Shown piece by piece: positions 15,724 to 57,536 of a DNA stretch of 64,000 nt. The stretch comes from Myxococcaceae bacterium (GTDB taxonomy: Bacteria; Myxococcota; Myxococcia; Myxococcales; Myxococcaceae). The notes beneath the pieces are model-generated. The model was given only the letters and a program-made list of their open reading frames with translations. It had not been told where the DNA came from and made no database searches. How positions within the stretch are numbered: position 1 is the first letter of the stretch; every line of letters begins with the position of its first letter. The stretch is taken from contig JAEUJQ010000083.1 of assembly GCA_016793095.1 (NCBI GenBank), forward strand, positions 124,001 to 188,000. The letters are read 5' to 3'. Both the position numbers and the translations under genes were made by a program.

Positions 15724-15795
15724 GGGCACATAGCTCAGCGGTAGAGCACCGCCTTCACACGGCGGGGGTCCCAGGTTCGAAACCTGGTGTGCCCA
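15724..15795 (+). tRNA. tRNA-Val(CAC)
   Basis: 72 nt. Acceptor GGGCACA pairs with TGTGCCC, discriminator A; D stem GCTC/GAGC; anticodon stem CCGCC/GGCGG with loop TTCACAC (anticodon CAC); T stem CCAGG/CCTGG with loop TTCGAAA. CCA is not encoded. The 3' half from 15750 lies within the prophage attachment repeat: after integration the intact tRNA is left here and only its 3' half at the far end. Confidence 0.95.
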
Positions 15796-15806
15796 CAACG
15801 GAAACC
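15750..15806. repeat. attL: 57-bp prophage attachment core
   Basis: These 57 bases are identical to 52315-52371. The core starts in the anticodon stem of tRNA-Val, covers the anticodon and T arms and acceptor 3' strand, and extends 11 bases past the tRNA. Flanks differ on both sides, which fixes the limits. Confidence 0.95.
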
Positions 15807-15867: not shown

Positions 15868-15929
15868 CTTGGACCTACTTTGGACCTGAAACGGTGTGAG
15901 ACGGTGTGAAGCGGTGTGAAGCGGTGGAA
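15868..15929. repeat. Left copy of integrase arm-type repeat
   Basis: Contains two TTGGACCT units followed by four tandem CGGTGTGA-like units about 10 bases apart. It matches 52181-52246 in the same orientation at about 57 of 66 positions. It overlaps the 3' end of the integrase gene. In the circular phage the two copies would flank attP, the layout expected for integrase arm-binding sites. Confidence 0.6.
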
Positions 15930-17155
15930 TCGGAGTAGGCCCGGTCGAGCGCGAGGCGCAGGTCCTCGTTCGACAGGTGGCCGTAGATGTCGTTCGTCGT
16001 CCTGATGCTCGCGTGCCGCACGACGCGGGCGACGTGAGCGAGGGGCACCCCGGCCTTCAGCAGGTTCGTCGCGCAGCTGTGGCGGAGGTCGTGGAACCGG
16101 ATGCGGGGCGGCACCGCGCGCACCCACAGCTTCGTGTGGTGGCGGCTGCAGCGCACGTCGCGGGGCTCGGTCTGCTGCACCTGGCGGACGAGGGGGCGGC
16201 CCTGCGCCTTGCACCGCCGGCACCAGAGCTCCCAGTGGTCGACGATGCCGACCGCCGCGCAGACGGTGCGCAGCACGAGGTGCGGGTCGGACTCGCGGGT
16301 GCGTGGCTTGCCCCTCGAGTCGGGGAAGAGCCAGGGCCCGCGGCGCCGAGCTGCGCGCTCGAGGTAGGGCACGAGGACGTCGGGCACGGGAAGCTCGTCG
16401 ATGCGGCCCGTCTTCGTCCCGGCCCGCTGGTACGACGAGGCGACCCGCAGCGTCCTCCTCCGAGCGTCCCAGTCGCCCTTCCTGAGCCCGAGAATCTCCC
16501 CCTTCCGGAGGCCGAGGTAGGCGGCGACGGCCATGACGCCGCGCCACGAGTCCCAGTGGAGGGCCGCGCGCTTGTCGGTGGCCTCGTACGCCAGCACCCG
16601 CTGAATCTCCTCGGGCGACAGGACGCGCAGCACCTTCCGCTCGACGCGCCGGCGGCGGGTGAGGGCGACCGGGTTGGCCGCGCCCCAGCGCCGCGGTGGC
16701 CGGCTCGCGGCAGCGAAGGCGGCGTGGAGCGACGTGCGCAGCCGGTTGATGGAGCCGGGCGCGAGGCCCTTCGCGGTCGGCCCCTCGTCGGGGCGGTCCT
16801 TCTCGAGCTGCTCGAGCCGGCGCTCGATGAAGTCGGCCGTCACCAGCGCGAGGGGCGTGCGGCCCAGCTCGGTGTGCTTGAGGTGCTTCTCGAGGCGCAT
16901 CCGCTCCATGGCGCGCGACGCCGGCGGGCACCGCTCCTCGAGCCACCAGTCGAGGAGCGACCAGAACGAGTCCCGGACGATGACGGGCGGGGCCTCGAGG
17001 CCGAGCCGCACCCGCGACGTCTGGGCCTCGAGCTCGGCGAGCAGCGCGAGGGCCTCACGGCGGCTCGTCGCCCGGGTGGCCTTGCGTCTGGGCACGCCGG
17101 CGGCGTCCGTCCAGGTGACGTACCAGCGCCGACCGCGTTGAAGGACGTGCCCCAC
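15875..17155 (-). CDS. Tyrosine integrase with zinc-finger-like insert
   Basis: 426 residues from GTG 17155, which directly follows the excisionase stop (TGAGTG). It recombines phage attP with tRNA-Val attB. Catalytic residues: R217 (GLRKGE), H355 and R358 (HDLRHS), H381, and the nucleophile Y391 (NDIYGHL). The N-terminal arm-binding domain covers about residues 1-65 and the SAM-like core-binding domain about 65-165. Between box I and box II, residues 312-340 add C312-x2-C315 ... C336-x2-H339/H340, a probable zinc knuckle not found in most integrases. The last 20 residues are encoded by the arm-type repeat. Confidence 0.95.
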   Translation of the reverse strand: MGHVLQRGRRWYVTWTDAAGVPRRKATRATSRREALALLAELEAQTSRVRLGLEAPPVIVRDSFWSLLDWWLEERCPPASRAMERMRLEKHLKHTELGRTPLALVTADFIERRLEQLEKDRPDEGPTAKGLAPGSINRLRTSLHAAFAAASRPPRRWGAANPVALTRRRRVERKVLRVLSPEEIQRVLAYEATDKRAALHWDSWRGVMAVAAYLGLRKGEILGLRKGDWDARRRTLRVASSYQRAGTKTGRIDELPVPDVLVPYLERAARRRGPWLFPDSRGKPRTRESDPHLVLRTVCAAVGIVDHWELWCRRCKAQGRPLVRQVQQTEPRDVRCSRHHTKLWVRAVPPRIRFHDLRHSCATNLLKAGVPLAHVARVVRHASIRTTNDIYGHLSNEDLRLALDRAYSDSTASHRFTPSHTVSGPK

Positions 17156-35232: not shown

Positions 35233-36195
35233 TCACCCGAGGGTCGCGGCGTACTGCGCATCGAAGTTGATGGCCCACAGGTGTCGCTGGTCGGAGTCGA
35301 CGCCGAGGTAGGCGGGCTGCGAGTCGCGCGAGTACCAGGACAGGTAGCCGGTGATGACGCGCTGGTGGCACCACTCGATGACGCCTCGAGCGAGCGCCTC
35401 GCCTGCAGCGAAGTCGTCGGCCGAGCTGCGCACCATCACCTGCACCGAGGGGTTGAAGACGGACTGACGCTCTCCCGAGAGCATCGACTCGGGCTCGCCT
35501 CCGCCGACATTCAGCGCCGCGACGCATGGTGACGGCGTCTTGTCGGTGTCGGGCATGCGGCCGATGAAGAGGTTGTCGGCCGAGGTGAGAAGCACGCCGC
35601 CCACCGTCTTCGTCGTGAGGAACTGCACGACGTCGAACGCGGCGTTCTTGATGGGCCCAGGCGACGGAGCCACCCAGGGGCTGGCGACCGACGTGGGCTC
35701 GCTCGAGAACTCCCAGTAGCTGGGCACGGCGCCGGCGGGCGCGTCGAGCCGCCCCTCGATGCCCGCCGTGACGTCGGCGCCGCTCGGAGTCAGCGAGTAG
35801 AGGTACGCGCCAGCGACGGCCACCAGCGACGGAGGCGTGCGCGCGGCTCCCGTCGGGTCGACGTACTGCAGCGAGCTCGGCGCCGCGCCGGCCCACAGCG
35901 CGCCGGCACCGTCTTCGAACTGGAAGCACCAGAACTGGTTCGAGTTGTCGACCTTGTGCACCGCGAACGACGCGCGCGCAGGCAGGTTGCCCGCGCCGCA
36001 GTCGACGAGCGCGACGGTGCCCACCGTCTCGTCAGCGTCCGAAGGCGTGAAGACCCACTTCCCCGAGCCGACGTGCGTGATGGCGGGAGGCGTGCGAGCG
36101 GCTCCCGTCGTGTCGACGTAGACGGCCAGCGTCACGCCCGTGGTGACGGGCGCGCCGGCGGAGTCGCGGACGGTGAGGGAGCGAGCGTCGGCCAT
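35233..36195 (-). CDS. Tail-terminator-like protein fused to two N-terminal repeat domains
   Basis: 320 residues. Two related beta domains occupy about residues 1-80 and 85-165, sharing VDTTGAARTPPAITHVGSGK / VDPTGAARTPPSLVAVAGAY and SxADxTxG. The C-terminal 140 residues (VVQFLTTKTVGG ... RQSVFNPSVQVMVRSSADDF ... AINFDAQY) resemble minor capsid/tail-terminator proteins, normally about 130-150 residues alone. The fused repeats may form a collar decoration. Confidence 0.65.
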   Translation of the reverse strand: MADARSLTVRDSAGAPVTTGVTLAVYVDTTGAARTPPAITHVGSGKWVFTPSDADETVGTVALVDCGAGNLPARASFAVHKVDNSNQFWCFQFEDGAGALWAGAAPSSLQYVDPTGAARTPPSLVAVAGAYLYSLTPSGADVTAGIEGRLDAPAGAVPSYWEFSSEPTSVASPWVAPSPGPIKNAAFDVVQFLTTKTVGGVLLTSADNLFIGRMPDTDKTPSPCVAALNVGGGEPESMLSGERQSVFNPSVQVMVRSSADDFAAGEALARGVIEWCHQRVITGYLSWYSRDSQPAYLGVDSDQRHLWAINFDAQYAATLG

Positions 36196-37909: not shown

Positions 37910-38538
37910 TGGAGCCTCCGGTACGTGCTCAGCAGCGACTGAGCCGCGTGCGGGATGAAGCTCTGGCCAACGCCGATAATCGAGTTGGGCAGCTGGTAGG
38001 CGACGGAGTAGTCGCCCAGCGACTCGCTCGCGATGGACGGGTCGCGCGGCTCGCTGCGGTACATCGACACCACCGTCAGCAGGCACGCCTCTTCGATTTC
38101 GAAGGGGAGGTTCCGCGTGCCCGACTGCGCAGGCGTCACCCACCCGCCGGCGTACGTGACGACGATGGCCTTCACCTCGCCGTACAGGCGCCCACCGTCG
38201 TCGCAGAGGCCGGTGTACGGCCAACCAGCTGCCCGGTAGAGCGCGGCCGCATCGAGGTCCTCGACGGTGTAGTCGGCCGGGTCGAGCGTCGAGCCGTCGG
38301 GCATCACGACGCTGGCCACCGAGATGAGGGGAGCGACGCCGAGGTACAGCCGCACCTGGCCTTTGAAGCCCGGCAGCTTCTCGACGATGGCGGCGCCGTA
38401 GTGGAGCTGCGGCCGGTTGAGGTACCGGCGGATCGCCCCCGAGGCAGCGCCGATGAGGCGTGGCAGCTTCGGGTCAGAAGCGCTCACGCCGAGCACGTCG
38501 GCCGCCGCCGCCAGGGTCGTGAGGTCCGAATCGGCCAT
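37906..38538 (-). CDS. Head-tail connector protein (gp6-like)
   Basis: 210 residues from ATG 38538. The pattern LPRLIGAASGAIRRYLNRPQ ... RLYLGVAPLISVASVVMPDG ... ACLLTVVSMYR is the gp6/gp15 connector family that binds under the portal. The ATG is one base past the 3' end of a tRNA gene, with no Shine-Dalgarno element between, so it may be translated leaderless after tRNA processing. Confidence 0.78.
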   Translation of the reverse strand: MADSDLTTLAAAADVLGVSASDPKLPRLIGAASGAIRRYLNRPQLHYGAAIVEKLPGFKGQVRLYLGVAPLISVASVVMPDGSTLDPADYTVEDLDAAALYRAAGWPYTGLCDDGGRLYGEVKAIVVTYAGGWVTPAQSGTRNLPFEIEEACLLTVVSMYRSEPRDPSIASESLGDYSVAYQLPNSIIGVGQSFIPHAAQSLLSTYRRLQ

Positions 38539-38539
38539 G

Positions 38540-38611
38540 TTGCGGAGGCTGGATTCGAACCAGCGTGCCCGGGTTATGAGCCAGGTGAGGGAGCCGCTCC
38601 TCAACCCCGCA
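38540..38611 (-). tRNA. Initiator-like tRNA-Met(CAT) inside the phage structural operon
   Basis: 72 nt on the minus strand. Acceptor TGCGGGG pairs with CTCCGCA, discriminator A; D stem GAGG/CCTC; anticodon stem CCTGG/CCCGG with loop CTCATAA (anticodon CAT); variable loop GCAC; T stem GCTGG/CCAGC with loop TTCGAAT. The acceptor and the A11-T24 pair resemble bacterial initiator tRNA rather than elongator Met or Ile2. The usual C1-A72 mismatch is a T1-A72 pair and one anticodon-stem pair (T29-C41) is mismatched. CCA is not encoded. Confidence 0.8.
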
Positions 38612-38619
38612 AGAACTGC

Positions 38620-38666
38620 CCTCGCCGGCGTTCCCCGGGAGACGAGCGCTCCCGGCGTCGGCGAGG
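38620..38666 (-). terminator. Strong hairpin between decoration gene and tRNA
   Basis: Outer stem CCTCGCCG/CGGCGAGG (8 bp) and inner stem CCGGGAG/CTCCCGG (7 bp) form a long hairpin just before the tRNA. There is no T-run, so it may be an attenuator or RNA-processing signal rather than a full terminator. Confidence 0.5.
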
Positions 38667-38682: not shown

Positions 38683-39099
38683 TTACGGGTGCGCGACGGC
38701 CCCGGCGTTCGGCATGGTGAGGATGGCCTGGGCGCTGATGAAGCCGCCGCTCGTGGCGCCGGCCTGGGTCAGCTTGAGCCGGTAGTAGCGCTTCCCCACC
38801 TTGCTGAGGTTGACGCCGGTGCGCTCGCACACGCCGTCGTCCGTGGTGGCGATGGCCGGGGCCGCGCCGATGAGCTGGTCCGCGGTGAGCGCGACCTCGT
38901 CCGACATGTTCGACGCGTTGCCGCCGAACACCTGCCCGGTGAACGTGCCGTCGGTGATGACGCCCGTCGAGACGACGAAGGTGAGGCCGTTGTAGCCCTT
39001 CGTGTCGATGGTGGCGCCGGTGGTGACGCCGTTCCCCGTGACGGCGGCGGCGGGCGTCGTCGAGGGGACCGCCTTCATGACTTCGCTGTTGATGTCCAT
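38683..39099 (-). CDS. Head decoration or accessory capsid protein
   Basis: 138 residues directly after the capsid gene. Beta-rich (YNGLTFVVSTGVITDGTFTG; KVGKRYYRLKLTQAGATSGG) like small capsid-adjacent proteins of siphoviruses that stabilise the shell. The fold is inferred; no motif is decisive. Confidence 0.6.
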   Translation of the reverse strand: MDINSEVMKAVPSTTPAAAVTGNGVTTGATIDTKGYNGLTFVVSTGVITDGTFTGQVFGGNASNMSDEVALTADQLIGAAPAIATTDDGVCERTGVNLSKVGKRYYRLKLTQAGATSGGFISAQAILTMPNAGAVAHP

Positions 39100-39208: not shown

Positions 39209-40567
39209 TCACGTGCGGGTGCTGTTGAGCGTGATGATGGGGCTCTGGCTCGACGAGCCGTTCTTGCGCGCGAAGCTCTTGGTCCACCACGGCTGGCCGC
39301 CGATGCGCTGGATGAAGCGCATCGCCGTCATGTCCTGCTCGAAGTAGACGTGCATCGACACGTCGGCACGAATGCCCGACGGGCCCGTCTTCGTCGCGAG
39401 GATGTACTCGAGCGGGTCCCAGAGGATGATGTCCCCCTCGGTGCCGAGCGCCTTGCAGTCCTCGCACACGATGACCGGCCGCCCCATCAGGGTGCCGTTC
39501 GGCCGCTCGAGCAACCCGCCGGGCGGCAGGTAGACGGGCTGGTTCGCCAGCGTCATCAGCGGCAGCACCGCCTCGACGTCGGAGTGCACCAGCCACACCG
39601 CGCGCGAGCGCGACTTCACCGGCAGGCACGACCACATCTTCGCGATGTTGTCGGCGATGACGGTGTTCGCGCCCTGGCCGGCCTTCGCCGCGGCCGTCAC
39701 CTTGGCGGTCGCGTTCAGGATGCCGAGCAGCGTGCCAGGCGAGCCAGCGCCGGTGATGATCTCCTGGTTGAGGAACTCGACCGTCTTCTCGGGCACTTTC
39801 GTCGACACGTACGACGACATCGCCGCCGCGTCCTGCATCAGCTCCTCGGTGAGCGGCACGAGCGCGCCCAGCTTGACGAGCTTCGTCTCGAGGCTGCCGA
39901 GCTTCGGCTTCGAGCCGGTCATCGTCGCGCCCTCGGCGATGTAGCCGACGATGATGCCCGAGCTCGAGTCCCAGGGCGCGTTCTCGTCGATGGGGAACGT
40001 CAGCCGGTTGGAGCTGGTGCGCTGATCATCGCAGAGCGCCGCCAGCGAGCTCTGGCCCTCGATGGCTTTGCGGATGTTCGAGCGGTAGTCAGGAGGCACC
40101 GCGAAGCCGCCCTCCTCGTTCACACCCTCGCTGCCGAACGTCGTGGCGGCGTTCAGGATGCGCGGGTCGCGCTTGATGCCAGCCCTGTGGTTGCGCGCCG
40201 CGATGATGAACTCGCCCTCGGACTGGAAGCCCCAGGTGCCCCTGCTCGCGCCGGGCTTGTCGCCGCCGGTGATGCGCGCGGCGGTCGTCTGGCGGACGGG
40301 CTTCGAGAGCTCGGCTGCGCTCGCCACCGCGCGCCGGGTCTCGGCGAGCAGCTCCTCCTGCTCCTTCGCCGCCTGCTCCTTCTCGGCGATGACGTCCTGG
40401 GCGTCCTTCAGCTGCGCCTGCACGGCACGGATGGCCGCGAGCTGCTCGGCGGTCGCCGGCGTGCCGGACTCGAGCTCCGTCGCCATCGTGTTCAGCTTCT
40501 CCGCGAGGCCCTCCGCGTGCGAGACGACCGCCGCGAGCGCCAACAGCTTCATCTGTTCCTTGGTCAT
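39209..40567 (-). CDS. Major capsid protein, HK97 fold
   Basis: 452 residues. Residues 1-95 are a coiled-coil scaffold/delta domain (ELLAETRRAVASAAELSKPV) removed by the prohead protease. The shell domain follows: NEEGGFAVPPDYRSNIRKAI, SLETKLVKLGALVPLTEELM, GAGSPGTLLGILN, and the P-domain to QDMTAMRFIQRIGGQPWWTK. This is the standard Phage_capsid family layout. Confidence 0.92.
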   Translation of the reverse strand: MTKEQMKLLALAAVVSHAEGLAEKLNTMATELESGTPATAEQLAAIRAVQAQLKDAQDVIAEKEQAAKEQEELLAETRRAVASAAELSKPVRQTTAARITGGDKPGASRGTWGFQSEGEFIIAARNHRAGIKRDPRILNAATTFGSEGVNEEGGFAVPPDYRSNIRKAIEGQSSLAALCDDQRTSSNRLTFPIDENAPWDSSSGIIVGYIAEGATMTGSKPKLGSLETKLVKLGALVPLTEELMQDAAAMSSYVSTKVPEKTVEFLNQEIITGAGSPGTLLGILNATAKVTAAAKAGQGANTVIADNIAKMWSCLPVKSRSRAVWLVHSDVEAVLPLMTLANQPVYLPPGGLLERPNGTLMGRPVIVCEDCKALGTEGDIILWDPLEYILATKTGPSGIRADVSMHVYFEQDMTAMRFIQRIGGQPWWTKSFARKNGSSSQSPIITLNSTRT

Positions 40568-41349
40568 GGTGCTTTCCTGTCTGGTGCTGCGTTGGTCTTC
40601 GGCTTGCGAAGCGACTGCGTGGCTCGGAAGGCGTCGAGGCGCGCCCGGACCGCGAGGGCCGCGGCCTCACTGGCGCGCGAGGCCTCCTCAGCCGGAGCCG
40701 CCGCCGGGGCGTTGTCCTCGGCGAAGGTGGCGATGCTGTCGGTGAGGCCGAAGTCGAGCGCCTCCTGCGCCGTCATCAGCTCGTCGCGGTCCATCTGCGC
40801 GAGCACGTCGGCCGCGGCCTTGCCCGTCTTCGCGACGTAGAGCTCGGCGATGGAGGCGGAGTACTTGTCGAGCTCGCCCGCGGTGCGCTCCGCGAAGGTT
40901 CGGAGGGAGGCGGCGGTGAAGACGTCGACGACGACGGTGGAGGCGTTGTGGATGAGCCACTTCCCGTGCTTCGCGGTGACGACGCGGTCTGCCGCGAGCG
41001 CGATGTACGAGGCGGCCGAGGCGGCGAGGCCGTCGATGTAGGCGACCTTCTCGCCCTTCCACCGCTCGAGCTGCGAGTAGATGGCGTCGGCCTCGTAGAC
41101 GCTGCCGCCGGGGGAGTTGATGAAGATGTTGAGGCGGCTCGCGCCGGAGAAGGCCTCGAGCTTCTCCTTGATGCCGCCGGCGGTGATGCCCTCTTCCCAC
41201 CACGAGGAGCCGATGACGCCGTAGATGTGCAGCTCGGCGACGTCGGCGTTGCGGACCTGCGCCACGGCCGGCCGCTGGCGGGCGAAGTGCGAGCGCCACT
41301 CCTGCAGCAGCCTGGGCGCGAGGTTGAGGGCGGGGGTCGGCGTCGTCAT
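40564..41349 (-). CDS. Prohead maturation protease, ClpP-like
   Basis: 261 residues. ClpP fold with FINSPGGSVYEADAIYSQL at 76-94, catalytic Ser 111 in DGLAASAASYIALAAD, and His 134 in KHGKWLIHNAS; a DFGLTD motif follows. It cleaves the scaffold domain of the capsid protein. Ser-His type, unlike the S78 protease of HK97 itself. The C-terminal 50 residues are a charged tail. The start overlaps the portal stop. Confidence 0.9.
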   Translation of the reverse strand: MTTPTPALNLAPRLLQEWRSHFARQRPAVAQVRNADVAELHIYGVIGSSWWEEGITAGGIKEKLEAFSGASRLNIFINSPGGSVYEADAIYSQLERWKGEKVAYIDGLAASAASYIALAADRVVTAKHGKWLIHNASTVVVDVFTAASLRTFAERTAGELDKYSASIAELYVAKTGKAAADVLAQMDRDELMTAQEALDFGLTDSIATFAEDNAPAAAPAEEASRASEAAALAVRARLDAFRATQSLRKPKTNAAPDRKAP

Positions 41350-42644
41350 GCGGCTTCTCCGAGACGAGGCGAGGGGAGGGCGCTGACGCCAGGCGTGGGC
41401 TCCTCGGCCGGCTCCGCCGTGGTTTCGGCCATCAGGCGCGGCAGCGTCGTCATGTTCAGCTGCACCGTGAGCACGTCGCCGGCCTCGCCGACGTCGTCGA
41501 GCCCCTCTTCGGCGCGCACCTCGTTGCGCGTCTTCACGCCGTTCTGCAGCCAGTTGCTGGCGGCGATGGCCCGCGTCTGCGCGTCACCGCGCACAAGGTG
41601 GGAGAGGTCGATTTCCGCGTACCACCACGGCCCCTTGGCCCCGGTGTTGAAGACCTTCGCGTTCAGCTCCTGGCAGTACCGGACCGCCCAGGGAAAGAGG
41701 CAGCTGTTCACGAAGTCGAGGCCCTGGTGCTCGATGTTCGAAAACGTGGCGTGCTCGAGGTGCTGAATCTTGTGGAGCGGCACGCCGAACCAGCGGGCGA
41801 TCTCCTCGACGGAGAACTTCTTGTCGTCGACGAGCGAGGCCTTCTGCGGGTCCACCGTCGTGGCCGTGAACTTGGCCCCGCCCTCGAGCACCAGCAGCCG
41901 GTGAGCTTTCCCCAGGCCGGCGTGGTTGTTCTCCCAGGACTCCCGGAGGGCCGCCTTCTGGTCCTCGCCGAGCTTCCCGGGGAACTCCGCCACCCCGCCG
42001 AGCTGGGCGCCGCGGCCGTAGAACGCCGCCGAGAAGCGCTCGTGCGCCGCCGCCACCGCGAGCGACCGGGAGGCGCGGGTCACCAGGTTCTCACCCATGA
42101 GGCCCGAGATGCTGGGACCGCGCAGGTGGAAGACGTCGCGCGCCTGGAGCGTGCGCACCTCGCCGCTCTCCTCCCGCACGTCGTAGACGAGCGCCCCGCC
42201 GTCGTCTCGGCGCGGCGTCACCCGGGTGCTGAGCAGCGGGTAGAGCGCGGCGACCCGGCCGCCGCGGTCGCGGGCGATCTCCGCGTACGAGTTCCCGTCG
42301 GCGATGGCCTGCAGGAAGAGGGCCTCTCGGAACGCGATGGCCGTCATCTCCTCGTTCGGCCGAACGTTCAGCAGCCAGACGCGGGGGTCCTTCTCGATTT
42401 TCCGCCGGCGCCTGGTGCCCTCGATGGGCTCGAAGATGTTCGTGGGCGCGGCCGCGAGGTTCTTCGCGATGACGTCCATGCACGCCCAGACCGCCGAGAG
42501 CATGAGCGCGTCTTCGCGGCTGAGCTGCAGGCCGGCGAAGCTGACCGCCATGGGCGGAGCGTTGAGGCGCGAGTCACCACGCAGCCAGCTGTCTCGCCAG
42601 GCAGCGAAGAACCCGCGGAACGCTCTCGTCACCCAGGAGGCCAC
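41346..42644 (-). CDS. Portal protein, HK97 family
   Basis: 432 residues, typical length. Motifs: ALMLSAVWACMDVIAKNLAA, PNEEMTAIAFREALFLQAIA, DGNSYAEIARDRGGRVAALY, and the C-terminal FSVEEIARWFGVPLHKIQHL plus RNEVRAEEGLDDV common to Phage_portal proteins. It forms the DNA entry dodecamer at one capsid vertex. Confidence 0.92.
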   Translation of the reverse strand: MASWVTRAFRGFFAAWRDSWLRGDSRLNAPPMAVSFAGLQLSREDALMLSAVWACMDVIAKNLAAAPTNIFEPIEGTRRRRKIEKDPRVWLLNVRPNEEMTAIAFREALFLQAIADGNSYAEIARDRGGRVAALYPLLSTRVTPRRDDGGALVYDVREESGEVRTLQARDVFHLRGPSISGLMGENLVTRASRSLAVAAAHERFSAAFYGRGAQLGGVAEFPGKLGEDQKAALRESWENNHAGLGKAHRLLVLEGGAKFTATTVDPQKASLVDDKKFSVEEIARWFGVPLHKIQHLEHATFSNIEHQGLDFVNSCLFPWAVRYCQELNAKVFNTGAKGPWWYAEIDLSHLVRGDAQTRAIAASNWLQNGVKTRNEVRAEEGLDDVGEAGDVLTVQLNMTTLPRLMAETTAEPAEEPTPGVSALPSPRLGEAA

Positions 42645-42690: not shown

Positions 42691-44370
42691 CTACAGCAGC
42701 GTGAATCCGCCCTGAGGCACCTCTTCCTCGGGAGCGACGATGGACCGGCTGCGCGCCATGATGGCCGCGACGATGCCGTCGATCTTCCCAGACGCCTTCG
42801 CCTTGTTCGGCTTGAGGTTGCCGGCCTCGTCGGCGACCACCACCACGTTGTTCGCGCACCACCGCAGCACCGGGTGCCCGTTGTGCCGCAGCCGCCCCTT
42901 CACGACGGAGACCTCGAAGTCTTTCGTCGGCTCCGACATGGACTTGTAGCCCTGCCCGCATTCGACGCAGACCGGCTTCGCGCCGTCGGGCTCGAGCACG
43001 GCGATGCCCTCCTTCACGAGGTCGTTGACCAGCTTCTGCGAGCCCCAGGGATCGAAGGCGAGCTCGGTGATGCGGTACCGCTTCGCGAGCGCGGCCACCT
43101 CGGTCTTGATGAAGTCGTAGTCGATGGCGTTGCCCGGCGTCAGCGCGAGCCACCCCTCTCGGGCCCACTGCGCGTAGTGCGGCCGCCCCTTCGCCTCTTC
43201 GTCGGTCGCCCGGTCTTCCGGCAACCAGAAGCGGCACACGAGCTCGTGGCCGCGCTCGGTCTCGAACTCCAGCACCAGGGCGGTGAGGTCGAGCTTGCTC
43301 GAGAGGTCGAGCCCGGCCCTGCACGTGCGCCCCTCGAGCGCCTTCTCGAACTCGGCCCGGGGAATCGGCGCCGGGTCGCACGCTGTCCATGCATCGAGCG
43401 AGAGCCATGCGGTGCTCTGTTGGCTCCAGATGTTCAGGTGCTTGCGCAGGTACTCGTTCAGCGCCGAGGGCAGAGCCCGAGCCTCCTCGGCGCGCTCGCG
43501 CAGCCACGCGGGCTTCACCGACACGCCCCAGTTGGGGTTCGCCTTCTGCTGCGCGACCTCTGAGAACGGGTCGTCGCCGGCGTCGGGCGCGGCGATGAAG
43601 GCGAAGAAGGCGTCGTCCTCGAAGACGCCGTCGAGCACCTTCTGCGCGTAGTCGTGCTTCTCCCAGCCGATGGACTCCGGGCGGAAGACGCCCGCGGTGG
43701 TGATGGCCACCATCAGCGGCTCGCGCCGCGCGCCCATGCCCGACTGGATGACGTCCCACATGCCGCGCGTCTTGTGCGCGTGGAGCTCGTCGGCGAGGCC
43801 GGCGTGGGGGTTGAGCCCGTCCTGCGTTTCGCTGTCGGAGCCGAGCGGCTTGAAGAACGCGCCCGCCCCGTCGAAGGTGATGGAGTCGGCGAGCACCTTC
43901 ACGTGCCTCTTGAGCAGCTCGCTCTTGTTGACGGTCTTCCCCGCCTCGAGCCACAGCAGCCGCGCCTGGTCTTCCTTCGTCGCGAACGAGTAGACCTCGG
44001 CGCCTGGCTCCTGGTCGCCCACCATCAGGTACAGCCCGAGGCCGGAGGCGAGGAGGGACTTGCCGTTCTTCCGCGCGACCTCGATGTACGCGGTGCGGAA
44101 GCGGCGCAGCCCGTCGGCGCGCACCCACCCGAAGAGGATGCGGAGGATGCGGCGCTGCCACTCCTCGAGGATGAGCGGCCGGCCGGCCCACTCTCCCTTG
44201 TGGTGCTTGCAGAAACGCTCGACGAACTGCACGACGCGCTCGCCGAGCTGCGGAACGAACCGCAGCCCCTTCGGGTGCCCGCCCTGCTGCAGCGAGAGCG
44301 CGAGGTCGCGCTCGTGCCGCTCGTAGCAGAGCCGCTCGTACCTGCCGATCGCGCGCGACTGCGCAGTCAT
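42691..44370 (-). CDS. terL: Terminase large subunit
   Basis: 559 residues. The N-terminal packaging ATPase has the Walker A variant ARKNGKS at 99-105 and Walker B LADEL with D-E at 194-195, followed by the coupling motif ITTAG. The C-terminal nuclease domain has acidic LDLSSKLDLTALVLEF and FDPWGSQKLVNDL motifs. Family Terminase_1 (HK97/P27-associated). It cuts concatemers and pumps DNA into the prohead. Overlaps TerS by 4 bases. Confidence 0.93.
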   Translation of the reverse strand: MTAQSRAIGRYERLCYERHERDLALSLQQGGHPKGLRFVPQLGERVVQFVERFCKHHKGEWAGRPLILEEWQRRILRILFGWVRADGLRRFRTAYIEVARKNGKSLLASGLGLYLMVGDQEPGAEVYSFATKEDQARLLWLEAGKTVNKSELLKRHVKVLADSITFDGAGAFFKPLGSDSETQDGLNPHAGLADELHAHKTRGMWDVIQSGMGARREPLMVAITTAGVFRPESIGWEKHDYAQKVLDGVFEDDAFFAFIAAPDAGDDPFSEVAQQKANPNWGVSVKPAWLRERAEEARALPSALNEYLRKHLNIWSQQSTAWLSLDAWTACDPAPIPRAEFEKALEGRTCRAGLDLSSKLDLTALVLEFETERGHELVCRFWLPEDRATDEEAKGRPHYAQWAREGWLALTPGNAIDYDFIKTEVAALAKRYRITELAFDPWGSQKLVNDLVKEGIAVLEPDGAKPVCVECGQGYKSMSEPTKDFEVSVVKGRLRHNGHPVLRWCANNVVVVADEAGNLKPNKAKASGKIDGIVAAIMARSRSIVAPEEEVPQGGFTLL

Positions 44371-52246: not shown

Positions 52247-52314
52247 GCGTGCAGCCAAACGCACGAGAACTCAAACGGTGTGACTCAGTGCGAAGCGGTG
52301 GAAACGCAGCGGAG

Positions 52315-52371
52315 CGCCTTCACACGGCGGGGGTCCCAGGTTCGAAACCTGGTGTGCCCACAACGGAAACC
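52315..52371. repeat. attR: 57-bp prophage attachment core
   Basis: Identical to 15750-15806. It carries only the 3' half of tRNA-Val (anticodon arm to acceptor 3' strand); upstream sequence cannot form the 5' half, so it is not a functional tRNA. Confidence 0.95.
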
Positions 52372-53157: not shown

Positions 53158-53231
53158 GGTCCCATAGCTCAGTTGGATAGAGCGGCGGTTTCCTAAACCG
53201 CAGGTCGCAGGTTCGATTCCTGCTGGGATCA
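53158..53231 (+). tRNA. tRNA-Arg(CCT)
   Basis: 74 nt. Acceptor GGTCCCA/TGGGATC (one G-T pair), discriminator A; D stem GCTC/GAGC; anticodon stem GCGGT/ACCGC with loop TTCCTAA (anticodon CCT); T stem GCAGG/CCTGC with loop TTCGATT. CCA not encoded, in line with the CCA-adding enzyme gene 26 bases downstream. Confidence 0.95.
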
Positions 53232-53256
53232 CTCCTCTGGAGAAGCGAGGCCCGCG

Positions 53257-54474
53257 GTGAAGCAGAAGAGCGCGCTGCTGCTCGAGCGGGCCGTCGTTCC
53301 ACCGGCGGTGCTCGAGGTCGTGCAGGGCCTCGTCACGGCCGGACACGAGGCGTTTCTGGTCGGCGGCTGCGTTCGGGACATCTTGCGGGAGCAGCCGCCG
53401 AAGGACTTCGACATCGCGACCAGCGCGCGCCCCGAGGAGGTGCAGCGCGCCTTCCGCCGCGTCATCCCCACCGGCATCGAGCACGGCACGGTGACGGTCG
53501 TGGTGCGGGGCGTCCACGTCGAGGTCACCACCTTCCGCGCCGAGGCGGACTACCTCGATGGGCGGCGTCCCTCGAAGGTCGAGTTTCACACCGACATCGA
53601 GGCCGATCTCTCGCGCCGCGACTTCACCATCAACGCCATGGCCTGGGATCCGGTCGGCAAGCGGCTGGTGGATCCGTTCGGTGGTCGCGACGATCTGGCC
53701 TCACGGACGATCCGCTGCGTGCGCAGCGCCATGGAGCGCTTCCTCGAAGACGGCCTGCGCGCGATGCGGGCCGTGCGGTTTGCGACGGTGCTGGACTTCG
53801 CGATCGCGCCTGAGACCGAGGCAGCGATCCCGCAGACGCTCCACGTCTTCCGCAAGGTCGCCATGGAGCGCATCAACCAGGAGTTCACCCGGCTCCTGCT
53901 CGCGCCTCACGTCGCGCAGGGCCTGACGCTCACGCGCCGCACCGGCCTGCTGGGTCAGTTCCTGCCCGAGGCCGAGGCAACGGAGCCGAGCGCGGTGGCC
54001 CGAGCGCCCGCGGACCTCGCGATCCGGCTCGCCGTCCTCCTCCATCACGCCGCCGGGGTGAAGGACGTCGTGCTGCGCCTCAAGTACCCGGTGAAGGTCG
54101 CGACCGACACGGCCCATCTGGTCGAACACCTGGACCTGCCGGCCGCCGACGCCCCTGACGCGCAGCTGCGCCGGTGGCTCGCGACGGTGAAGCCAGAGCA
54201 CGCGCCCTCGATCCTCGACGCGGCCGGGGCCCTGGGCGGCTCCGTCGCGACCCTGATGGACCGCAGCGCCGCGCTCATCGCCTCCAACCCGCCGCTCTCG
54301 ACGAAGGCCCTCGCCCTCAACGGCGGGCAGATCATGAAGGTGCTGAACGTCGGCCCTTCTCCCATCGTCGGCCAGGCCACCGCCTTTCTGCTCGACCGCG
54401 TCCTCGACGAGCCCTCCCTCAACACGCCCGCTGCGCTGGAGTCCCTGCTCGCAGGGTGGAAGCCGCCCGCCTGA
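53257..54474 (+). CDS. cca: CCA-adding tRNA nucleotidyltransferase / poly(A) polymerase family
   Basis: 405 residues from GTG 53257. Class II nucleotidyltransferase head: FLVGGCVRDILREQPPKDFD with catalytic D50 and D52, RRDFTINAMAWDP, and the nucleotide-selecting ERFLEDGLRAMRAVRFATVL. It adds or repairs CCA at tRNA 3' ends; poly(A) polymerase activity cannot be excluded from sequence. Both host tRNAs and the phage tRNA here lack encoded CCA. Confidence 0.9.
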   Translation: MKQKSALLLERAVVPPAVLEVVQGLVTAGHEAFLVGGCVRDILREQPPKDFDIATSARPEEVQRAFRRVIPTGIEHGTVTVVVRGVHVEVTTFRAEADYLDGRRPSKVEFHTDIEADLSRRDFTINAMAWDPVGKRLVDPFGGRDDLASRTIRCVRSAMERFLEDGLRAMRAVRFATVLDFAIAPETEAAIPQTLHVFRKVAMERINQEFTRLLLAPHVAQGLTLTRRTGLLGQFLPEAEATEPSAVARAPADLAIRLAVLLHHAAGVKDVVLRLKYPVKVATDTAHLVEHLDLPAADAPDAQLRRWLATVKPEHAPSILDAAGALGGSVATLMDRSAALIASNPPLSTKALALNGGQIMKVLNVGPSPIVGQATAFLLDRVLDEPSLNTPAALESLLAGWKPPA

Positions 54475-56588: not shown

Positions 56589-57536
56589 ATGCGCGTTTCA
56601 TCAGCTGTCCTCATCGGTGGAGTCGTCGGCTTCAGTCTCTCCCTCGCATCGTGCGGACCGACCACCGCAGCCTGTGGGCCGGGCACCTGTAACGGGTGCT
56701 GCGACTCGAATGGTGAGTGCCTCGCGGGGACGGCAATCTTCGAGTGCGGCAGCGGCGGGGCGATGTGCACCGCGTGCCAACCCAACGAGCTGTGCGTCGA
56801 GGGCGCCTGCGGGCTCTTCCCGGGTGGGCAGTACGACGGGAGCTTTCCGGGCGGGCGGGACGGCTCGATCAACTACGACGCGGGGCTCTTCGACGGCGGT
56901 CCGATGATCGACGCCGGCACCGACGCAGGTCGGCCGGACGCTGGCGGCATGATGGACGCTGGGCGCCCCGACGCTGGCGTGGACGCGGGCGCAGGGGGTG
57001 GTTCTGCAGGGGGCGCCGGTGGAGGCATGGCGGGGGGCGCGGGTGGCGGGATGTCGGGCGGAATGGCCGGCGGCTCCGCGGGTGGAATGGCCGGCGGCTC
57101 CGCGGGTGGAATGGCCGGCGGCACCGCAGGCGGAATGGCGGGCGGCTCCGCAGGCGGAATGGCGGGCGGCTCCGCGGGTGGAATGGCAGGCGGCTCCGCA
57201 GGCGGAATGGCGGGCGGGTCGGCGGGTGGAATGGCAGGCGGCGCGGGCGGCGGTGCGGCCATGCCCGACGCGGGCCCGCCGGTGTCCTTCATGAGCGACG
57301 TGGCCCCGATCTTCTCGAGCTACTGCGCGGGCTGTCACCCGAGCCGGCCCACCTACTCCGATGCGCGCGCGCGCGTGGTTCCGTTCAACCCGCCGGCGAG
57401 CCTCATTTTCCAGAAGATCACCGGCACCCAGTCCTCAGGAGGCCCGATGCCGCCGGGAGCCCAGCTGTCCATCGATGATCCGGCCGCGACGCTCACCATC
57501 GAGCGGTGGATCCTCCAGGGCGCGCTGAACAACTGA
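56589..57536 (+). CDS. Secreted lipoprotein with Gly-rich repeats and cytochrome-like CxxCH
   Basis: 315 residues. Signal peptide with lipobox SLASC; a Cys-rich N-terminal part (CGPGTCNGCCDSNGEC). An Asp-Ala-Gly linker follows, then an 8-residue repeat GGMAGGSA (about 7-8 copies). The C-terminal domain has heme site YCAGCHPS and MPPG at about 291, like single-heme cytochrome-c domains of the PSCyt1/planctomycete type. Probably an outer-surface electron-transfer or sensor protein. Confidence 0.8.
   Translation: MRVSSAVLIGGVVGFSLSLASCGPTTAACGPGTCNGCCDSNGECLAGTAIFECGSGGAMCTACQPNELCVEGACGLFPGGQYDGSFPGGRDGSINYDAGLFDGGPMIDAGTDAGRPDAGGMMDAGRPDAGVDAGAGGGSAGGAGGGMAGGAGGGMSGGMAGGSAGGMAGGSAGGMAGGTAGGMAGGSAGGMAGGSAGGMAGGSAGGMAGGSAGGMAGGAGGGAAMPDAGPPVSFMSDVAPIFSSYCAGCHPSRPTYSDARARVVPFNPPASLIFQKITGTQSSGGPMPPGAQLSIDDPAATLTIERWILQGALNN
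57060..57243 (+). repeat. 24-bp tandem repeat coding for GGMAGGSA
   Basis: About 7.7 copies of a 24-base unit with small changes (ggtggaatggccggcggctc type). The repeat keeps the frame and differs mainly at third positions, so copy number can change without loss of frame. Confidence 0.9.

Follow-up and report, generated by a model that had tools for sequence, protein, structure and literature searches.

An initiator-type tRNA gene flush with the connector start codon in the head operon of a Myxococcaceae prophage: a candidate punctuation element

The carriage of tRNA genes by bacteriophages is an old question, and the usual answers to it are codon supply and escape from host nucleases. Initiator-type tRNAs are among those carried, with examples in Vibrio phage VH7D, Aeromonas phage 31.2, DSS3_MAL1, mycobacteriophage Erdmann, and Streptomyces phage Comrade, where, as far as they are annotated, they are found in arrays away from the head genes. 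A single CAU tRNA is also present in phiLM21-like and RR1-A rhizobial phages, BUCT566, and Donnerlittchen, which have genomes of 49-58 kb; their tRNA-Met is not flush with an ATG and is placed between or opposite genes of a regulatory or early kind, or else separated by 200 nt from the gene that follows. In mitochondrial tRNA punctuation (PMC8437803), RNase P and RNase Z free the mRNAs that lie beside tRNAs in polycistronic RNA. Leaderless initiation is an established bacterial route (PMC2268962), and leaderless messages have been predicted in cluster O mycobacteriophages from the position of a promoter at the ATG (PMC4351075). In tRNA-dependent lysogeny, a temperate phage carries a tRNA of the same isotype as the host attachment-site tRNA, which is not reconstructed on integration (mBio 2024, PMC10865867).

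The tRNA described here, from a prophage of a Myxococcaceae bacterium, resembles those of the first group of phages in its CAU anticodon, its initiator-type D and acceptor stems and, in common with several of them, its T1, and it resembles that of the second group in being the only CAU tRNA. It differs from both in its place within the head operon, where it abuts a start codon. As in mitochondrial punctuation, the tRNA abuts an ORF and its excision, here predicted, would leave a nearly leaderless mRNA; unlike the mitochondrial case, the setting is the operon of a bacterial phage and includes a single tRNA, its processing is a prediction, and the organelle enzymes differ. The predicted message shares with those of the cluster O phages the lack of a leader and of a Shine-Dalgarno (SD) sequence, but no promoter-like site was found here and the end would come from processing of the tRNA. 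The open-access literature searched yielded no account of a phage head gene with an initiator tRNA flush against it, which is not proof of absence.

The prophage and its late operon

The window, by which we mean the whole 64-kb stretch of DNA that was analysed, belongs to a genome of 8.8 Mb (G000, contig C51). The prophage spans about 36.6 kb and is bounded by a host tRNA-Val at one end and, at 52308, by an incomplete copy of the same gene; a 57-bp core at 15750-15806 is directly repeated at 52315-52371 and leaves the tRNA-Val intact. A temperate phage with a tyrosine integrase, a tRNA attachment site and a tRNA of its own has much in common with the phages of tRNA-dependent lysogeny, and its tRNA might be thought to replace a host tRNA destroyed by integration. 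This explanation has next to no probability and is refuted for the prophage by an isotype mismatch, the attachment site lying in tRNA-Val(CAC) and the phage tRNA being CAU, by the restoration of the attB tRNA (70.0 bits) through the 57-bp core, and by an intact host fMet gene elsewhere in the genome.

Several further features of the host genome concern tRNAs or lie close by. Just outside the prophage, at 53158-54474, a tRNA-Arg(CCT) is followed by a gene recognised by eye as resembling a CCA-adding tRNA nucleotidyltransferase, and an ORF at 56589-57536 contains long tandem repeats of the GGMAGGSA type. The host fMet gene (L036 1-1574, G000:C79) is adjoined on its 3' side by what appears to be a large serine recombinase, and a second element is possibly integrated at tRNA-fMet. 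On one contig of the host assembly, low-scoring tRNAs of various isotypes are clustered together with a separate fMet-like gene (G000:C39:144-956 and 54168-54329; L038), an arrangement suggestive of a large phage or element.

The late genes of the prophage are arranged on the minus strand in the order TerL, portal, ClpP-like protease, capsid, phrog_5707, tRNA, and adaptor phrog_442 (Table 1). The tRNA thus lies inside the structural operon, between the phrog_5707 and head-tail adaptor (connector) genes, as an earlier, preliminary description of this DNA had placed it.

Table 1. Features of the prophage and its attachment site, in window coordinates
Feature	Position	Strand	Evidence or remark
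Host tRNA-Val(CAC), attachment site	15724..15806	+	tRNA call; 70.0 bits, intact
Tyrosine integrase	15875-17155		
Head-tail adaptor (connector) gene, 210 aa	37906..38538	-	phrog_442 E=6.8e-23; ATG 38538-38536
Initiator-type tRNA(CAU)	38540..38611	-	72 nt, ending at discriminator A73; no encoded CCA
GC-rich hairpin, 8 nt upstream of tRNA 5' end	38620..38666	-	Predicted fold and alignment
phrog_5707 structural gene, 138 aa, upstream of tRNA	38683..39099	-	PHROG E=1.3e-11
HK97-type major capsid protein	39209..40567	-	PF05065 E=1.8e-40
Head maturation protease (ClpP-like)	40564..41349	-	PF00574, phrog_94
Portal protein	41346..42644	-	PF04860 E=4.2e-90
Terminase large subunit	42691..44370	-	PF20441, PF03354

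The preliminary description had also claimed a complete cloverleaf, and both programs used agree: ARAGORN calls a minus-strand tRNA-Met(CAT) at 38539-38611, and covariance scoring against Rfam RF00005, which had been set beforehand as a test, accepts 38611-38540 with 42.1 bits (E=1.5e-5, cutoff 29) and two non-standard pairs. The sequence reads TGCGGGG TT GAGG AGCGGCTC CCTC A CCTGG in its 5' part and, after CCTGG, CTCATAA CCCGG GCAC GCTGG TTCGAAT CCAGC CTCCGCA A. It contains the T1-A72 and A11-T24 pairs and the T29xC41 mismatch that had been read from it, and a single base, C38539, separates A73 from the connector ATG, again as first described. The strand, the copy in a sister phage and the hairpin upstream of the tRNA go beyond that description.

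Initiator-type character and the U1:A72 pair

On the identity elements of its sequence, the prophage tRNA is of the initiator type. The A11:U24 pair, which characterises 4430 of 4438 bacterial initiators but no elongator Met or Ile2 tRNA (PMC5143459 Table 3), is present both here and in the copy carried by a sister phage described below, and both copies have U1:A72, which is not a strong pair, at 1:72. The latter had first been regarded as odd for an initiator, a view that has to be reversed. A published survey lists U1:A72 for 63 of its 4438 bacterial initiators, as against 3 elongators (PMC5143459 Tables 2 and 3); wherever the surveyed bacterial initiators have a Watson-Crick pair at 1:72 it is this one, and elongators virtually never have it (PMC5143459). 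Being rare in elongators and known in initiators, the pair points to an initiator. The three G-C pairs at 29-31:39-41 are complete in the sister copy (GGG/CCC), and the prophage copy has UGG/CCC; the mismatch originally noted at T29-C41 is thus real and breaks one typical initiator pair, but it is private to the prophage, the sister having G29-C41. Among the host tRNAs the closest is fMet, with 79% identity, and two further CAU tRNAs with elongator-type stems have 61-64%.

The U1:A72 pair is also common among phage tRNAs of this type. In viral-contig initiator-type tRNAs with A72 and A11:U24 (loci L102-L327), a sample picked by sequence pattern and counted without regard to phylogeny, U1 is found in 20 of 52 distinct sequences and 16 of 32 clusters, and the bacterial survey has it in 63 of 3501 initiators with A72 (PMC5143459). 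As judged from this pattern-picked sample, phylogeny being ignored, U1:A72 is far commoner in phage initiator-type tRNAs than in bacterial initiators. The GGG/CCC anticodon stem is absent from many of the 24 most frequent viral initiator-type tRNA types listed. The C1-A72 mismatch compromises processing of the tRNA 5' end (PMC5143459), a handicap that U1:A72 would relieve.

Conservation in a sister phage and the start of the connector gene

The occurrence of the tRNA in related phages, proposed at the outset as a check, was borne out in one viral contig, IMGVR_UViG_3300002461_001097, where the same tRNA (L079 6473-6544; 48.3 bits with RF00005) occupies the same place and is likewise flush with the ATG. 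Amino acid identity between this sister phage and the prophage is 89-90% for the portal, 82% for the capsid, 71% for the connector, and 91% over 129 aa for the phrog_5707 protein. The two tRNAs are identical at 69 of 72 positions and differ only at 26, which is unpaired, at 29, where the G of the sister gives an intact CCGGG/CCCGG stem, and at 44 in the variable loop. Of the 72-column windows of the aligned region, 5.7% are as conserved as the tRNA, mostly in coding DNA, since protein-coding stretches are conserved too; the comparison was therefore made with silent sites. Four-fold degenerate sites in six flanking genes are 72% identical (545/757), and at that rate 69 of 72 has P = 2e-7. That both phages keep the tRNA in this position, and with this identity, is more than chance. 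As one block, conservation extends from the 3' arm of the hairpin upstream, across the 8-nt linker and the tRNA, to the bases that precede the ATG. The hairpin leader folds with -34.5 kcal/mol in the prophage and -31.2 kcal/mol in the sister, its 3' arm and the linker being identical and its loop different, and it may form the 3' end of the upstream message.

Beyond the sister phage, the tRNA is absent from the connector locus in L039, L092 and all connector relatives with scanned loci from 193 genomes. An exact search for the tRNA pattern gave no match in a collection of 84,980 species genomes, a DNA search of 96 family genomes did not find the prophage tRNA, its hits being fMet-like genes of the hosts and a few others, and no relatives of phrog_5707 were found in the genome contigs. 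The Rfam score of 42.1 bits compares with 65.3 for the host fMet and up to 75 for other host tRNAs, and because of this difference, the T29xC41 mismatch and C21, the prophage copy may be partly degenerate. The same features, together with the absence of the tRNA from the other relatives examined, would suit an insert acquired by the common ancestor of both phages and now drifting without function. We regard such decay as improbable, given 69/72 identity where silent sites stand at 72%, changes that apart from position 29 are all tolerated or neutral for pairing, and intact head genes on either side.

The N-terminus of the connector, MADSDLT, agrees with those of L039 and the sister phage. The ATG follows A73 by 1 nt in the prophage and by 2 nt in the sister, and the reading frame relative to the tRNA therefore differs between the two. 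Translation only from an upstream start inside the tRNA region had been named as an observation that would refute the first reading, and the prophage does have an in-frame TTG at 38604; it has no counterpart in the sister, whose upstream frame is closed by a stop within the tRNA (the TAA of the anticodon loop) with no ATG, GTG or TTG between, so that the gene must start at the tRNA-flush ATG. Neither a promoter nor a terminator was found in the gap before the connector gene. The reported lack of an SD sequence was confirmed, the anti-SD duplex amounting to about 0 kcal/mol (0.1) at both tRNA-bearing loci, against -4 to -11 kcal/mol for most neighbouring late genes. The connector relative L039, which has no tRNA and 58% identity, starts at the same residue with the SD sequence GAGGTAA (-7.2 kcal/mol). 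This contrast is suggestive only, because TerL and portal of the same prophage, along with the gene at 36195, also lack an SD sequence.

Flush arrangements were also sought elsewhere. An initiator-type 3' half with an ATG within 0-4 nt occurs in 73 viral-contig stretches, most of which open short frames only. Besides the sister phage, good cases are L180, an unrelated phage in which the tRNA is flush with the large terminase gene, and L156, in which it is flush with the ATG of a phage MazG-like gene. The L180 terminase (L180:1211-3622) holds a LAGLIDADG-type insertion, which is probably an intein. L141/L198, which represent one Dam-like methylase gene, were not accepted as a strong case, because the frame has another ATG upstream and an SD-like start occurs later. 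In L072, from a genome of the same family (G060:C347), a CAU tRNA lies 3 nt before the ATG of a short, apparently frame-broken ORF, and is a doubtful case. Flush cases were rare among 120 stretches sampled separately, and no excess over chance is shown for flushness by itself.

The main rival to punctuation draws on this last result. The tRNA could be an ordinary accessory one, serving as an extra initiator or Met tRNA or as a spare for fMet damaged by anticodon nucleases such as VapC, with its position a matter of compaction and the connector modestly translated from the uncut polycistron. Initiator-type tRNAs are widespread in phages, the host has 8 VapC-type PIN-domain matches, and some VapC toxins cut tRNA-fMet (PMC10264068). 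Such matches do not, however, make tRNA-fMet the target, and phages generally avoid encoding this VapC target (PMC10264068). A folded tRNA directly 5' of the start would be expected to hamper ribosome binding. Above all, an accessory role leaves unexplained why 1-2 nt to the ATG has been kept in both phages through a change of frame and without an SD sequence; the retention of a flush tRNA through a frame shift in two sister phages is a stronger point than flushness alone. We consider the accessory role possible but on balance unlikely.

Proposed excision of the tRNA as the source of the connector mRNA

The best reading of the locus, to which we give a probability of about one half, is that the co-transcribed tRNA is excised as punctuation and leaves a near-leaderless connector mRNA. 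Transcription would place the tRNA in one RNA with the capsid and connector genes. It would be cut at its 5' end, behind the hairpin, by the RNase P of the host, which is assumed to be present, and the hairpin would then close, and could protect, the capsid-side message at its 3' end. The host's RNase Z, whose gene scores 329 bits against a cutoff of 293, would cut after A73, the expected 3' route because CCA is not encoded. This is in keeping with the host, in which CCA is encoded in few of the 44 tRNAs examined and is missing from fMet; tRNAs without encoded CCA have also been remarked upon for some Myxococcales (PMC5143459). The freed tRNA could receive CCA and methionine, and the connector mRNA would begin C-AUG in the prophage or CA-AUG in the sister, with a leader of 1 or 2 nt, and would be translated as a leaderless message; the excised tRNA possibly supplies initiator as well. 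We infer from the sequence the origin of the mRNA end in tRNA processing, the leaderless translation, the charging of the tRNA and its use in initiation. The near-leaderless message put forward in the preliminary description accordingly stands as to anatomy, which fits and is kept in the relative, while excision, leaderless translation, aminoacylation and formylation of the tRNA, and the boost to initiation suggested for infected cells keep the rank of predictions.

The conserved fold and flush position, along with the conserved linker and 3' arm of the hairpin, could alternatively belong to a cis-acting tRNA mimic that stays uncut and binds methionyl-tRNA synthetase, IF2 or RNase P, so regulating the start of the connector. 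This is very unlikely, as a full tRNA bearing the features of an RNase P and RNase Z substrate would be expected to be cut in a cell that has RNase Z, and a precedent was not found in the open-access literature searched.

Returning to punctuation by an excised tRNA, a wider form of the idea is that initiator-type tRNAs serve phages as intercistronic processing elements, in which one excision would yield both a leaderless late mRNA and an extra U1:A72 initiator that is easier to process without encoded CCA, and that such elements would have arisen more than once, at connector, large terminase, and other genes. This generalization is speculative and, as it stands, rather doubtful. The excess of U1:A72 among phage initiator-type tRNAs offers a second lead that can be tested. 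At the present locus, it is the position of the tRNA and not its anticodon that suggests a role in making an mRNA end.
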